Below, one piece after another: positions 6,446 to 56,835 of a stretch of DNA of 64,000 bases; positions within the stretch are counted from its first letter, which is position 1; each line of letters starts with the position of its first letter. Source of the stretch: a virus; the IMG/VR virus record IMGVR_UViG_3300037847_003419, positions 1-64,000 of that record; one strand, given 5' to 3'. The notes under the pieces were generated by a model that worked only from the letters and a program-made list of their open reading frames with translations, did not search any database and was not told the DNA's origin. A program made the translations under genes and the position numbers.

Positions 6446-6940
6446 TTATTTGTTTTTTAAATATTCTTCAATATCTTTTATATATTTAGTTCTGCCATTT
6501 TGTTTAATAGCAATAACTTCTTGTTTTCTATTTGGTCTATGTGATACCCAACTAATATGAACCCAGTTAGGATTACCGTCAGGATATTCACCTCCAAACT
6601 CCCAAACCATTTGATCAAAATCTAAATTATCTTTTATATAGTGATACATCTCTGCGTTTGTTTTATGTCCAAAAGTATCGTCAATATCTATAGCTTGACC
6701 TTTCATGTGTTGTGATCTAGTACTACCACCTATTGCTGTATTAACAGGCTCGCCTCTAAAAAAGCTATTTATTTTTATTGGTCCACCTACCCACTCACGT
6801 AACGGCTCAAACAAATTTTCTGCAACTTCTTTCATGCATTTAATTTGTTCTTCGTTAGGAGTATTGTCTAAACCTCTTCTTTCACCTGTTCTACTATACG
6901 TGCCTTCGTGCCAGCTCACGTGTTTACTTATTCTTTCCAT
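6446..6940 (-). CDS. M15-family peptidase, probable endolysin
   Basis: 164 residues. This is a zinc D-Ala-D-Ala carboxypeptidase/endopeptidase fold that cleaves peptidoglycan cross-bridges. Seen: INSFFRGEPVN (substrate-loop Arg), SQHMKGQAIDID (H-x-x-G-x-A-x-D, first His and Asp ligands) and PNWVHIS (last His ligand). I start it at the ATG at 6940, after an A-rich leader, rather than an in-frame ATG at 6970 inside the preceding gene. No signal peptide, so a holin or other route (candidate at 48199-48591) would release it. Confidence 0.88.
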   Translation of the reverse strand: MERISKHVSWHEGTYSRTGERRGLDNTPNEEQIKCMKEVAENLFEPLREWVGGPIKINSFFRGEPVNTAIGGSTRSQHMKGQAIDIDDTFGHKTNAEMYHYIKDNLDFDQMVWEFGGEYPDGNPNWVHISWVSHRPNRKQEVIAIKQNGRTKYIKDIEEYLKNK

Positions 6941-7256: not shown

Positions 7257-7351
7257 TAGCATGTACAGTCTTTACAGCATTTTTCACACCATCCTAAACA
7301 TACTAATCCAAACGTTATGGCTTGAAGCCACTTACAAAATTTACTTTTCAT
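7256..7351 (-). CDS. Tiny cysteine-rich membrane peptide (31 aa)
   Basis: An open frame beginning MKSKFCKWLQAITFGLVC and ending EKCCKDCTC, with seven cysteines in 31 residues. A short hydrophobic stretch is followed by a Cys cluster that could bind metal or be acylated. The A-rich leader (AAATAAATATG) matches its neighbours, and its TAA overlaps the ATG of the next gene (TAATG), which supports translational coupling. No family is recognised. Confidence 0.55.
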   Translation of the reverse strand: MKSKFCKWLQAITFGLVCLGWCEKCCKDCTC

Positions 7352-50967: not shown

Positions 50968-51225
50968 TTAATCTATAAGTACGACGTCTTGTTGTTTTAT
51001 AACGCCGTAAAATTTATCTTTATGTTGTATACCGTGGCCTGCGTGTTTATCGTAGTATATAACGTCGTCATTATTTATACCTTCTACTAAATTACCAACA
51101 GATACAACTTTTGCCTTTAAATATCTATTATCTTCGTTAATTTCATCTGTTAAAATTAATCCACCAACTTTTTTAGGCTCGTTCTTTATAGGGTCGATAA
51201 TTATATAATGATTAACTGCCTTCAT
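50968..51225 (-). CDS. groES: Co-chaperonin GroES (Cpn10)
   Basis: 85 residues, about 12 shorter than the bacterial protein. VNHYIIIDPIKNEPKKVGGLILTDE covers the first strand and the mobile loop with the hydrophobic GGLILT that docks onto GroEL. KAKVVSVGNLV, DDVIYYDKHAGHGI and YGVIKQQDVVLID give the remaining strands. It follows groEL with a 14-base overlap, so the order is groEL-groES, opposite to the usual bacterial operon. Together they probably fold the capsid protein. Confidence 0.9.
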   Translation of the reverse strand: MKAVNHYIIIDPIKNEPKKVGGLILTDEINEDNRYLKAKVVSVGNLVEGINNDDVIYYDKHAGHGIQHKDKFYGVIKQQDVVLID

Positions 51226-52777
51226 CTACTCTGATATTTGAAATTACACAATCAGCGGATATAATAGTAGTCACAACAGAAATAGAATTTTTAAGTGCTG
51301 TTTTAGTTACGAGCACAGGATCTATAATACCCGCCTTTACCATTTCGACTTCTTCACCTGTTATAACGTTTATACCGTTACCACCAGCAAGCTCTTCAGT
51401 TTGATCTATACCAGCATTAGACAATATAGTTTTATAAGGAGCTTTTATAGCGTTTAATAGTATTGCTTCACCTACGTTTTCACTAGCTATTCTTTCCGAT
51501 GCGTTTAATAAGGCAATACCACCTCCTGGAACTATACCTTCTTTCAAAGCAGCTTTAGTAGCATATATCGCATCTTCTACTCTATCACGTTTTTCTTTTA
51601 GTTCAACCTTCGAGTTAGCGCCAACGCGCACGATTCCAACACTACCTGACAGCATTGCTATTCTTTGCTGTATTTTTTTCTTTAAAAAGCCGTTTTTCTC
51701 TGCTTTGTGTAGCTTTTTAACTTCTTTTATACGATCTTTTACACTTTCGTCAATATTTTCAAGCGTAATTACTGTATTTTTATCGTCTGTAACAGCTTTT
51801 TCAGCTTCACCGAGTATATCTAGTGATATTCCGTCTAAATCATCACCTAATTCTTCGTTAATTACAGTAGCATTTGTTAAAATAGCTAAATCTTTTATAG
51901 TATCTTGCTTTGTAGGACCAAAACCAGGTGGGTCTATGATATTAACTTTAATATTACCTTTAACTTTATTCATTAAAAGCGCAGATTTAACCTGTTGTGA
52001 CACTGGAGCTACTATTAAAAGTGATCTATTGTTTTTAATAACGTACTCTAGTATGTTTTGTATCTTTCTAACATTAGGTATCTCTGAAGCTACGACTAAA
52101 ACTAGTGGATTTTCAAGTACAGCTCGCTGTTTTTCTGTGTCTGTAATAAAGTGTGGTGATGTAATACCGCATTCAAGTTGTACACCATCAACTAATTCTA
52201 CATAAGTTTCGTCAGTTTCAGAACTTTCCATTAAAACAACGCCATCGTTACCAACTTTTTTGTAAGCTTCTGCAATAATAGCACCTAGTTCTTTATCATT
52301 ATTACAACTAATAGCTGCAACATTGTCTAACATGTCGTCTTTTACCTCAATTTTAATACTATCAAGGTATTCGTTTACTTTTTTAAGCCCAGAAGCAATA
52401 CCTTCTTTTATATCTCTTGTAGTAAATTCTTTGTAAGATCTGTTGCTAATTTCTTTTATAAGTGATTCAGCAAGGACGGTAGCTGTAGTAGTACCGTCAC
52501 CCGCTTCTTTCACTGTATTTCTTGCGGCTTCTTTAATAAGTGTAGCGCCCATGTTTTCAACCGGATCAAATAAGACAACTGATTCAGCTACAGTTACTCC
52601 GTCTTTTGTGATAACCGGTTTACCGCGTCCATCTTCGTATATTACGCACTTACCAGAAGCGCCTAGTGTGGATTTTACGGCTTGAGCTAGCTTACTTACG
52701 CCAGCTATAATTCTAGATTTAGCAGAATCGCCAAAATTCAAGTCTTTGACAATCTCGCTAGGTAGATTGTATTCCAT
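51212..52777 (-). CDS. groEL: Chaperonin GroEL (Cpn60)
   Basis: 521 residues, close to full length (bacterial ~545). The ATP-site GDGTTTAT (D94) is intact, as are the Asp in RVEDAIYATKAALKEG, the VPGGG nucleotide loop, and IDPVLVTKTAL. The substrate-binding apical domain is diverged but present. It ends in NIRVDEGS without the Gly-Gly-Met tail that lines the cavity floor in many bacterial GroELs. An active double-ring folding machine with the phage GroES is likely. Phage-encoded GroEL is known but uncommon. Confidence 0.95.
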   Translation of the reverse strand: MEYNLPSEIVKDLNFGDSAKSRIIAGVSKLAQAVKSTLGASGKCVIYEDGRGKPVITKDGVTVAESVVLFDPVENMGATLIKEAARNTVKEAGDGTTTATVLAESLIKEISNRSYKEFTTRDIKEGIASGLKKVNEYLDSIKIEVKDDMLDNVAAISCNNDKELGAIIAEAYKKVGNDGVVLMESSETDETYVELVDGVQLECGITSPHFITDTEKQRAVLENPLVLVVASEIPNVRKIQNILEYVIKNNRSLLIVAPVSQQVKSALLMNKVKGNIKVNIIDPPGFGPTKQDTIKDLAILTNATVINEELGDDLDGISLDILGEAEKAVTDDKNTVITLENIDESVKDRIKEVKKLHKAEKNGFLKKKIQQRIAMLSGSVGIVRVGANSKVELKEKRDRVEDAIYATKAALKEGIVPGGGIALLNASERIASENVGEAILLNAIKAPYKTILSNAGIDQTEELAGGNGINVITGEEVEMVKAGIIDPVLVTKTALKNSISVVTTIISADCVISNIRVDEGS

Positions 52778-54818: not shown

Positions 54819-54875
54819 ATTGTGTTTTATTAGTTACACTAATAATTACATGGAAAAACTATTATTTACAAAAAG

Positions 54876-54922
54876 TGTGACACTTGCCTGTTACTAGGTA
54901 TTATTAATAGGCTTATGTCACA
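54876..54922 (+). promoter_or_regulatory. Start-codon hairpin, copy 1
   Basis: TGTGACA pairs with TGTCACA 33 bases later. An inner pair GCCT/AGGC lies 3 bases inside each arm, and the right arm overlaps an ATG (ATGTCACA). The motif TAATAGGCTTATGTCACA reappears with one change at 62413-62430, with the same pairs and spacing. A translational operator or protein-binding site is plausible. Confidence 0.6.
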
Positions 54923-54958
54923 AAAAAAATATATCGTAAATATTGGAGCAAAGTGTAG

Positions 54959-55215: not shown

Positions 55216-55270
55216 AAGTGTCGGACAGTACTAGTAATGTAAAATTATACAATAAACAAAGTATATACTT

Positions 55271-55301
55271 TACAAACTAAATACGAAACAAATTGGATAA
55301 T
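55271..55301 (+). promoter_or_regulatory. Promoter-like repeat, copy 3
   Basis: Exact boxes and spacing; 66 bases before the ATG at 55368, the longest leader among the early copies. The bases 55216-55270 before it hold no gene that I can see. Confidence 0.75.
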
Positions 55302-55367
55302 AATAATGTAAATAAACTAAATAAAAATAAATAAACAGAATATTAACTTAAATAAAAAATTAAAATT

Positions 55368-55598
55368 ATGGAAAATGTATTAAAAATGAAAAGATTTGTA
55401 GTAAGAAAGTCACTAATCGGTAAAAATCAAATTATAACTTTCACTACTAAAAAAGGTAAAGAAGTTACTTACAATCACGACAAAGTATACAATATTATGA
55501 AAGATACTTTAAACACTCTACCATGTTGGGAAAAATATAAGTCGTATACTTGTACAAATAACATACCAGTAGTATGTAGAGATAAAGAAATTATCTAG
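55368..55598 (+). CDS. Hypothetical early protein (76 aa)
   Basis: Basic (MENVLKMKRFVVRKSLIGKN), with QIITFTTKKGKEVTYN suggesting beta strands and two late cysteines. An A-rich leader (AAAATTAAAATTATG) supports the start. It precedes a structured non-coding stretch. Function unknown; a host-takeover protein would fit its position. Confidence 0.65.
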   Translation: MENVLKMKRFVVRKSLIGKNQIITFTTKKGKEVTYNHDKVYNIMKDTLNTLPCWEKYKSYTCTNNIPVVCRDKEII

Positions 55599-55628: not shown

Positions 55629-55759
55629 ACTCTGTATGAAGTACAGATTAGTACAGAGTGACTGGACACATAGTTCCACTTGTTTAGTGTGTTATAAAAA
55701 ATGTGAATGAGTATCAGTGTGAAAGGTTAATAGTAGTTCGATTCTACTCCACACTACTA
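55629..55759 (+). ncRNA. Structured RNA with tRNA-like T-arm/acceptor element A
   Basis: Two parts in the largest gene-free gap of the early block. At 55629-55659, ACTCTGTA pairs with TACAGAGT, and an inner TCTGTA/TACAGA hairpin competes for the same bases. At 55716-55759: AGTGTG, a 10-base single strand AAAGGTTAAT, then AGTAG-TTCGATT-CTACT (a canonical tRNA T-arm, G53-TTCGATT-C61), one C, CACACT closing the 6-bp acceptor-like stem, and ACTA. D and anticodon arms are absent. Element B at 56793 has the same plan with different stem sequences. Function unknown; RNase P or tRNA-enzyme recognition is possible. Confidence 0.7.
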
Positions 55760-55790
55760 ATAGAATGTTTAACTATAAAAATATATAATT

Positions 55791-56033
55791 ATGAATAGAA
55801 ATGAATTAAAAACGTTATTCTTCCAAATGGATTTGTCTAACGTTCCAGTAAAAAAACAAATAATAGTAGATGTAAACAAAGGACCTCACTGGAAAGGTTA
55901 TGGTACAATAGAAATATTAAGTGATGGACCAAATGGTCTTAGTTCATTCAAGACTTTCCAACAGTTTCCGTTCGAGTACATTGAAACTCGTGAAGAATAC
56001 AAATCAGGTGAGTATGAATTAATAGTAAAATAA
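55791..56033 (+). CDS. Hypothetical early protein (80 aa)
   Basis: Mixed alpha/beta protein: MNRNELKTLFFQMDLSNVPVKK, QIIVDVNKGPHWKGYGTIEI, and an acidic end. It opens after a typical A-rich leader and ends 2 bases before promoter-like copy 4. No family recognised. Confidence 0.65.
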   Translation: MNRNELKTLFFQMDLSNVPVKKQIIVDVNKGPHWKGYGTIEILSDGPNGLSSFKTFQQFPFEYIETREEYKSGEYELIVK

Positions 56034-56035
56034 AA

Positions 56036-56066
56036 TACAAACTAAATACGAACTTAGTTGGATAAT
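56036..56066 (+). promoter_or_regulatory. Promoter-like repeat, copy 4
   Basis: Exact boxes and 8-base spacer, starting 3 bases after a stop codon and ending 33 bases before the ATG at 56100. Confidence 0.75.
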
Positions 56067-56099
56067 ATATATGAATTTAAACTTAAAAAAATAAATACT

Positions 56100-56339
56100 A
56101 TGAAATTAAAAACCAATCAACTCCAAATTATTAAATTAAAAAACCAAACTTATTTACCTTTTCAATTACACCAATTACCAAAATGGTTTAATAAGTATTA
56201 TACAAATTACTTCAACTTAAAAGGTTATTGTTATATTAACATCAACGATATAAAAGAAAATAATAAATACTTTGACCTTCAAAATTATAAGGATAGAATG
56301 GTTTTCCATAAAAGTTTCGACCATAAAGGTCACAAATAA
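56100..56339 (+). CDS. Hypothetical early protein (79 aa)
   Basis: A Lys/Asn/Tyr-rich basic protein (MKLKTNQLQIIKLKNQTYLP; KWFNKYYTNYFNLKGYCYIN). I start it at the ATG at 56100 because an in-frame TTG at 56058 lies within the promoter-like repeat. It ends 2 bases before copy 5. Not recognised. Aromatic and basic content would suit nucleic-acid or membrane contact. Confidence 0.6.
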   Translation: MKLKTNQLQIIKLKNQTYLPFQLHQLPKWFNKYYTNYFNLKGYCYININDIKENNKYFDLQNYKDRMVFHKSFDHKGHK

Positions 56340-56341
56340 AA

Positions 56342-56372
56342 TACAAACTAAATACGATTACTAACGGATAAT
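56342..56372 (+). promoter_or_regulatory. Promoter-like repeat, copy 5
   Basis: Exact boxes and spacer; begins 3 bases after a stop and ends 16 bases before the ATG at 56389, the shortest leader of the set. Confidence 0.75.
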
Positions 56373-56388
56373 ATAATAAAATAAAATT

Positions 56389-56523
56389 ATGAACGAAAGA
56401 TTATTAAGAAAATATTTATTAATGTACTTACCCTATTTTAATAAAGAGAAGGATTGTTACGAGAAATGGATGGAAACAGTACAAGATGAAATTAGAAACA
56501 TATTAAATAAAGATGAATTATGA
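56389..56523 (+). CDS. Small early protein (44 aa)
   Basis: An open frame MNERLLRKYLLMYLPYFNKE...; helical with alternating basic and hydrophobic residues, ending in an acidic helix (QDEIRNILNKDEL). Its stop overlaps the ATG of the next gene (ATGA), and it has the usual A-rich leader. Unknown function. Confidence 0.6.
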   Translation: MNERLLRKYLLMYLPYFNKEKDCYEKWMETVQDEIRNILNKDEL

Positions 56524-56765
56524 GTAGAGAAATTAAAGTAAGTAAGTATGAAGGTAACACACATTACACTGTTGTAGTGATAGATAGTTACGGACAAGAA
56601 CATCACGTTGGTATTTATAAACATATCTATACAAATAAACTAGAGGAGAAGGCCCTCGAGATATGGTCAAACGAAGTGAAACGTGAGATAACTCCAATGG
56701 AGAGAGCGATTTCGTGGTGTGTAAATAATGATATAAGTAAAGGTAGAGAACCTAGTTTGGATTAA
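56520..56765 (+). CDS. Hypothetical early protein (81 aa)
   Basis: A beta-rich first half (YEGNTHYTVVVIDSYGQEHHVG) and a helical second half (EKALEIWSNEVKR, then MERAISWCVNND). Coupled to the preceding small gene by a 4-base overlap. Followed by the tRNA-like element B. No family recognised. Confidence 0.65.
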   Translation: MSREIKVSKYEGNTHYTVVVIDSYGQEHHVGIYKHIYTNKLEEKALEIWSNEVKREITPMERAISWCVNNDISKGREPSLD

Positions 56766-56770
56766 AATTC

Positions 56771-56835
56771 CACTCAATAGAGTGTCTCAATAGGTAGAAT
56801 GGTTAATGTGAGGTTCGATTCCTCACCTACCACTA
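56771..56835 (+). ncRNA. Structured RNA with tRNA-like T-arm/acceptor element B
   Basis: CACTC-AATA-GAGTG forms a hairpin at 56771-56784. From 56793: GGTAG, a 10-base strand AATGGTTAAT, then GTGAGG-TTCGATT-CCTCAC (T-arm), CTACC closing a 5-bp acceptor-like stem, and ACTA. Loop, single strand and 3' ACTA match element A while both stems differ in sequence but still pair, which argues for a selected RNA structure. It lies in the 82-base gap between two small genes. Confidence 0.7.

Follow-up and report, generated by a model that had tools for sequence, protein, structure and literature searches.

What does a phage gain from an RNA that keeps the acceptor stem and T-arm of a tRNA and cannot decode? 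The question is raised by two short elements, TLS1 and TLS2, of a marine phage, IMG/VR virus record IMGVR_UViG_3300037847_003419, of which positions 1 to 64,000 (the window) were analyzed here. A first-pass annotation, made from the letters alone, had described both as minimal tRNA-like RNAs that are processed by, or act as decoys for, tRNA machinery. We conclude that the elements are probably cutting marks at which host tRNA enzymes trim phage messages, because relatives preserve the fold but not its letters, at a place behind the same early gene.

Two tRNA-like elements without a third arm

55716-55759, + strand: TLS1, AGTGTG-AAAGGTTAAT-AGTAG-TTCGATT-CTACT-C-CACACT-ACTA (covariation; 61.7 bits with model R1)
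56793-56835, + strand: TLS2, GGTAG-AATGGTTAAT-GTGAGG-TTCGATT-CCTCAC-CTACC-ACTA (48.7 bits with model R1)

The first-pass annotation was correct on coordinates, stems, loop and ACTA tail. In each element the acceptor stem (AGTGTG/CACACT in TLS1, GGTAG/CTACC in TLS2) encloses a D-loop-like linker (AAAGGTTAAT or AATGGTTAAT) and a T-arm (AGTAG-TTCGATT-CTACT or GTGAGG-TTCGATT-CCTCAC), and the tail ACTA follows. TLS1 stacks 6+5 base pairs plus one additional C (A7.C66 by tRNA numbering) and TLS2 stacks 5+6, for 11-12 stacked positions, the same as in tRNA. The first-pass annotation saw no D arm in either. That holds for the D-stem. The linker AA(N)GGTTA, however, matches a tRNA D-loop (A14-R15-Y16-G18-G19), and for this reason the elbow between D-loop and T-loop is probably kept. 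Its GG is invariant in alignment A1, consistent with a three-dimensional elbow.

The combination is specific to these two loci. The pattern GGTTAAT-N3..9-TTCGATT has exactly two matches in the 64 kb window, with none expected from 100 shuffles, and two in the entire 65,872-base record. A looser tRNA-like descriptor, allowing inserts of up to 180 nt, found TLS1 and TLS2 as its sole loci in the window, with no match on the opposite strand or in the reversed window sequence. Folding energy is unremarkable for TLS1 (z -0.8) and modest for TLS2 (z -2.1); as such values are weak evidence by themselves, our argument is a comparative one.

Both elements have an acceptor stacked on a T-arm with a TTCRANN loop, as a tRNA does. 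Neither has an anticodon arm or D-stem, and the window contains no ARAGORN match and no Rfam match at gathering thresholds. Nor do they carry a tag reading frame, a ring of pseudoknots or any insert between D-loop and T-arm, as a transfer-messenger RNA (tmRNA) would. Since the defining features of both classes are missing, we count the elements as neither tRNA nor tmRNA. They also differ from intrinsic terminators, in which a U-tract directly follows the stem: here ACTAATAG and ACTAAAAT come after the elements.

The fold is conserved among related phages

We searched IMG/VR with a pattern that specifies sequence only and does not require pairing. It recovered 63 further loci, 62 of which pair perfectly; the one exception, L044, still reaches 57 bits under the covariance model. 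In an alignment of 39 sequences, standard pairs fill 99.1% of pair cells, and 10 of the 11 pairs have changed on both sides; the covariation score is 1.05, compared with 0.24 after shuffling and no more than 0.20 after sliding the partners. These sequences were drawn from copies that had passed a pairing scan, a mild filter given the 62 of 63 above. A structural scan found 179 distinct elements, versus 3 in reversed sequence, and genomes hold one or two copies. The first-pass annotation had taken the differing stems of two copies as covariation of a selected RNA structure, an interpretation that the 39 sequences bear out. It had also proposed searching relatives with a covariance model and named loss of pairing there as grounds for rejection; in the relatives found here the pairing is conserved.

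Among 84,980 bacterial and archaeal species there were only 4 matches, every one on a small contig of a metagenome-assembled genome (MAG). The element therefore belongs to phages, and we rejected a host-encoded origin. The large terminase subunit (TerL) places the window phage nearest to phages of Flavobacteriia. Its nearest cultured TerL relatives (Manatee Spring podovirus, Flavobacterium elemo and Cellulophaga phi46:3) had no element in the stretches scanned, and 50,697 phage records, searched by DNA and by gene, yielded nothing credible. We also noted two tRNA-like elements (6647-6690 and 7274-7316) in L102, a seemingly unrelated phage contig whose terminase is of another family (TerL phrog_38) and which has 52% GC and a queuine tRNA-ribosyltransferase-like gene.

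The site behind an early gene

55368-55598, + strand: 76-amino-acid early gene (RFV-RKSLIGKN family; alignment A2), whose 3' end carries TLS1
55629-55659, + strand: hairpin ACTCTGTA..TACAGAGT behind the 76-amino-acid gene (from sequence and a scan of relatives)
55665-55712, + strand: H-type pseudoknot, S1 GACACAT/GTGTGTT, S2 ACTTGTT/AATGAGT, A-rich loop ATAAAAAATGTG
55791-56033, + strand: 80-amino-acid gene behind TLS1, no promoter-like repeat between
56520-56765, + strand: 81-amino-acid gene in front of TLS2
56770-56784, + strand: hairpin CCACTC-AATA-GAGTG in front of TLS2

The upstream neighbor of the element belongs to the 76-amino-acid gene family in 34 of 48 contexts, and downstream neighbors vary. 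Starting from the gene instead, an element lies within 420 nt in 41 of 77 homologs (0 of 77 in reversed and 0 of 77 in antisense sequence). Starting from TerL, 2 of 21 records hold the gene, both with the element behind it. Overlaps with open reading frames of at least 80 amino acids are few, 3 of 90 for each strand. The AlphaFold model of the 76-amino-acid protein (predicted local distance difference test score 87.6) had no match in PDB or BFVD, and a Tad2-like Pfam assignment (E 0.17) was not accepted.

The pseudoknot ends 3 nt before TLS1. Across non-redundant copies, an H-type pseudoknot with an A-rich third loop lies 0-5 nt upstream in 18 of 56, versus 1.85 expected. Each element had been annotated as preceded by a hairpin; hairpins do precede both, and TLS1 has the pseudoknot as well.

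What stands at this site when the element is missing? In element-less relatives, the place equivalent to 55629-55659 often holds a hairpin with a T-run. Behind the 76-amino-acid gene such T-run hairpins occur in 8 of 37 homologs without the element and 0 of 40 with it (p=0.002). In two relatives the site is occupied by a hammerhead-like ribozyme:

L332:1726-1777: hammerhead-like ribozyme, full-length RF00163 match with complete core, 24.3 bits (gathering score 34), obtained when the stretch was searched alone and not found in a 20-locus scan
L336, near 1743: hammerhead-like ribozyme, same core as L332, by motif

A third hammerhead-like ribozyme lies near position 20 of L362. In the window itself, a hairpin at 54875-54925 (GTGTGACA..TGTCACA) resembles the terminator-like hairpins behind the 76-amino-acid gene in element-less relatives.

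A promoter-like repeat, probably the early promoter of this phage to judge from its sequence and positions, precedes the early genes:

55269-55305, + strand: promoter-like repeat TACAAACTAAATACGA-N8..9-GGATAATA, direct repeat family D1, ahead of the 76-amino-acid gene
55072, 56034, 56340, 57377 and 57681, + strand: further copies, ahead of early genes

A promoter motif follows the site in 11 of 40 homologs with the element versus 16 of 25 without (p=0.005), and the element therefore tends to sit within a read-through transcript. Elsewhere in the window, on the - strand, lie GroEL (51212-52777) and an adjacent GroES-like protein (50968-51225), as in Flavobacterium elemo phages.

The tail follows host tRNA conventions

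Because our first pattern required ACTA, tails were counted on non-seed elements, nearly all of which end in NCTA or ACAA. Full-length tRNAs of related phages have the same NCTA ending. In two MAGs of the host group, N73-C74 is encoded in 33 of 33 tRNA genes and CCA in only a few; the elements thus follow tRNA 3'-end rules. At L15, where the RNase P RNA of E. coli has GGU, the Flavobacteriaceae RNase P RNAs that could be parsed, 11 of 25, have U-R-A-G. This motif could pair with C74-U75, a match we regard as suggestive, given how few RNAs were parsed and the absence of a U75 preference in host tRNAs.

A proposed role in forming 3' ends of early messages

We propose that host RNase P cuts at the elements, so that the early mRNA in front acquires a structured 3' end, as in MALAT1/mascRNA, a reading that we hold to be somewhat better than an even bet. 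The elements would act as minimal tRNA mimics, with an acceptor/T-arm stack, a D-loop/T-loop elbow and an N73-C74 tail, embedded in a polycistronic early transcript. Host RNase P would recognize the elbow and acceptor end and cut 5' of the acceptor stem, and cleavage after A73 by a tRNA 3' nuclease may free a 44-mer. The upstream message, for TLS1 that of the 76-amino-acid gene, would gain a defined 3' end capped by pseudoknot and hairpin and be separated from the gene behind, either as tRNA punctuation or as 3'-end formation of the mascRNA type. The pseudoknot may protect that end, and the phage would presumably benefit.

The conserved structure, the tRNA-type tail, the site 3' of a conserved early gene and the alternation with terminator-like hairpins and hammerhead-like ribozymes are supported directly. 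This genomic evidence favors a cis-acting 3'-end or processing mark on early mRNA more than a free decoy. Of the two roles first suggested, the link to tRNA processing has strong support, as does tRNA mimicry, from covariation, the NCTA tail and host convention, and the free decoy is less favored. Several facts weigh against RNase P cutting. The pseudoknot is present in only about a third of copies, and none was seen upstream of TLS2, which moreover follows the 81-amino-acid gene and not the 76-amino-acid one. Many relatives of the latter gene lack the element, and the placement counts (gene homologs, hairpins, promoter motif) ignore kinship. Finally, where the canonical RCCA contact has C75 the elements have U or A, and the alternative contact with host RNase P RNA could be parsed in just those 11 of 25 RNAs.

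A broader and more tentative proposal, to which we give somewhat less than an even chance, is that a lineage of marine Bacteroidota phages forms early mRNA 3' ends by host RNase P at pseudoknot-capped, stripped-down tRNA mimics, at a locus exchangeable with intrinsic terminators and self-cleaving ribozymes, with many messenger-less tmRNAs alongside.

Longer relatives and alternative functions

The same early regions also hold longer elements, with the D-loop, T-arm and tail of the minimal one. Several match the tmRNA model (RF00023) over both ends without about 300 internal positions, two of them at 65.7 and 65.0 bits (gathering score 47) and another at 37.8 bits. RF00023 matches at E<=0.1 occur in 27 of 47 records, the weakest covering the T-arm alone. 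Of about 95 distinct long elements, 82 retain the alanine identity of tmRNA (G3.U70 with A73); between their classes, pair 4-69 varies (C-G, A-U, G-C, U-A) and 3-70 is constantly G.U. Judged by these sequence features, the long elements are tmRNA tRNA-like domains (TLDs) without the messenger part, as at three loci with G3.U70 and hypervariable inserts:

L084:12497-12577: messenger-less tmRNA, TLD only
L101:4740-4819: messenger-less tmRNA, TLD only
L071:4348-4427: messenger-less tmRNA, TLD only

Messenger-less tmRNAs are common in related marine phages, with more than 70 further loci. A conserved, structured-looking leader (actagttaactaccagtccg.aactgctgcctt) lies directly upstream of the GGGCGTG long TLD elements of L186, L114 and L166.

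The syntenic L186 and L071 are 80% identical across gene, leader and element, and their alignment has just one large gap, a 29-nt arm placed after the D-loop and before the T-stem, which makes the third arm dispensable. The first-pass annotation had allowed that the missing arms might lie in flanking sequence; in syntenic relatives the third arm is instead cleanly inserted or absent. True tRNAs also occur near the elements in relatives, often an initiator-like tRNA-Met. Initiator-type tRNA-Met genes (ARAGORN) were seen in L011, L015, L018, L027, L038 and L061, mostly with a GGG/CCC anticodon stem and ending in NCTA, not CCA.

Could the minimal element be a further-reduced TLD, excised to act in trans by titrating SmpB (or AlaRS or EF-Tu) and so damping tmRNA ribosome rescue in the host? 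We consider this unlikely, and still the foremost alternative. The long relatives in the same early regions, with their RF00023 scores of up to 65.7 bits and G3.U70 plus A73 in most, are TLD-only tmRNAs that have D-loop and T-arm in common with the minimal elements, and TLD-only RNA of the type in mycobacteriophage DS6A, chargeable or not, strongly inhibits tmRNA, perhaps through SmpB titration (PMC4131195; PMC11915505). TLS1 and TLS2, however, have no P2 helix and by sequence carry U-A at 3-70 in place of G3.U70, and RF00023 has no match in the window record beyond a sub-threshold 17-nt T-arm match. Action in trans would also leave unexplained the fixed site behind one gene and the alternation with terminators and hammerheads. 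RNase P cutting and SmpB titration are compatible, as excision could supply both.

A decoy or anti-defense RNA against a toxin, nuclease or modification enzyme that acts on tRNA acceptor/T-arms would account for an early-region element that keeps exactly the parts such enzymes read, with a conserved structure and varying stems. We saw no defense partner, copies number one or two per genome and the cis context is fixed, making this quite improbable. Less probable still is a 5' leader that aids translation of the downstream gene: start codons do lie close behind (median 29.5 nt), with an ACTATG overlap in some relatives, but it is the upstream gene that is conserved, as is a pseudoknot upstream of the element, and not the downstream genes. 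The possibility that these are tRNA genes in decay, or hairpins formed by chance, can be dismissed despite the tRNA-like T-loop and tail and the full tRNAs nearby in relatives, as compensatory change in 39 sequences and the clean gain or loss of the third arm rule out decay, 179 elements stand against 3 in reversed sequence and no anticodon remnant is present.

Comparison with known systems

In the literature searched, which covered only a minority of subscription papers, we found no phage mRNA described as carrying a tRNA mimic that lacks a third arm. The first-pass annotation knew of no described example, which agrees for that form; TLD-only tmRNA relatives have been described in DS6A, a related kind, so the elements are not wholly without precedent. 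If our reading is correct, no smaller tRNA mimic is known to us from nature; the elements have no third arm at all, and they would offer a clean natural experiment on the parts of a tRNA that RNase P and other enzymes need. They suggest that some Bacteroidota phages use tRNA processing as a code for cutting transcripts. The longer relatives indicate that messenger-less tmRNAs are common in environmental phages, DS6A being the only phage form cited in the literature searched.

In mitochondrial tRNA punctuation, tRNA shapes between the genes of one transcript are the cutting signals; those marks are working tRNAs, whereas the window elements cannot decode. Plant RNA viruses carry tRNA-like structures, some with pseudoknots directly upstream. 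The elements differ from these in belonging to a DNA phage, lying inside a transcript, having an acceptor that is not pseudoknotted and lacking CCA. In the DS6A TLD-only tmRNA, as here, a phage RNA comprises acceptor, D-loop and T-arm with no tag reading frame. The likeness extends to RF00023 matches and G3.U70 in our long relatives; TLS1 and TLS2 lack both, as well as the P2 helix, and such elements lie at fixed sites behind early genes.

In human MALAT1, an upstream triple helix could protect the RNA 3' end. The mascRNA and menRNA of MALAT1 and MENbeta are, like our elements, tRNA mimics on the 3' side of a transcript, with a D-loop GG and a T-loop that in the phage elements probably form the elbow as well. 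In mascRNA that elbow, built by two D-loop guanosines and the T-loop, is read by RNase P and RNase Z, and it is by RNase P cleavage that the RNA in front acquires its 3' end (PMC11693755). The phage elements likewise lie 3' of a conserved transcript (34 of 48 contexts; 41 of 77 homologs). They differ in being 44 nt long, in phage mRNA, without third arm or D-stem, and in following a protein-coding RNA with a pseudoknot in place of the triple helix, where the cleavage known for mascRNA would be expected.
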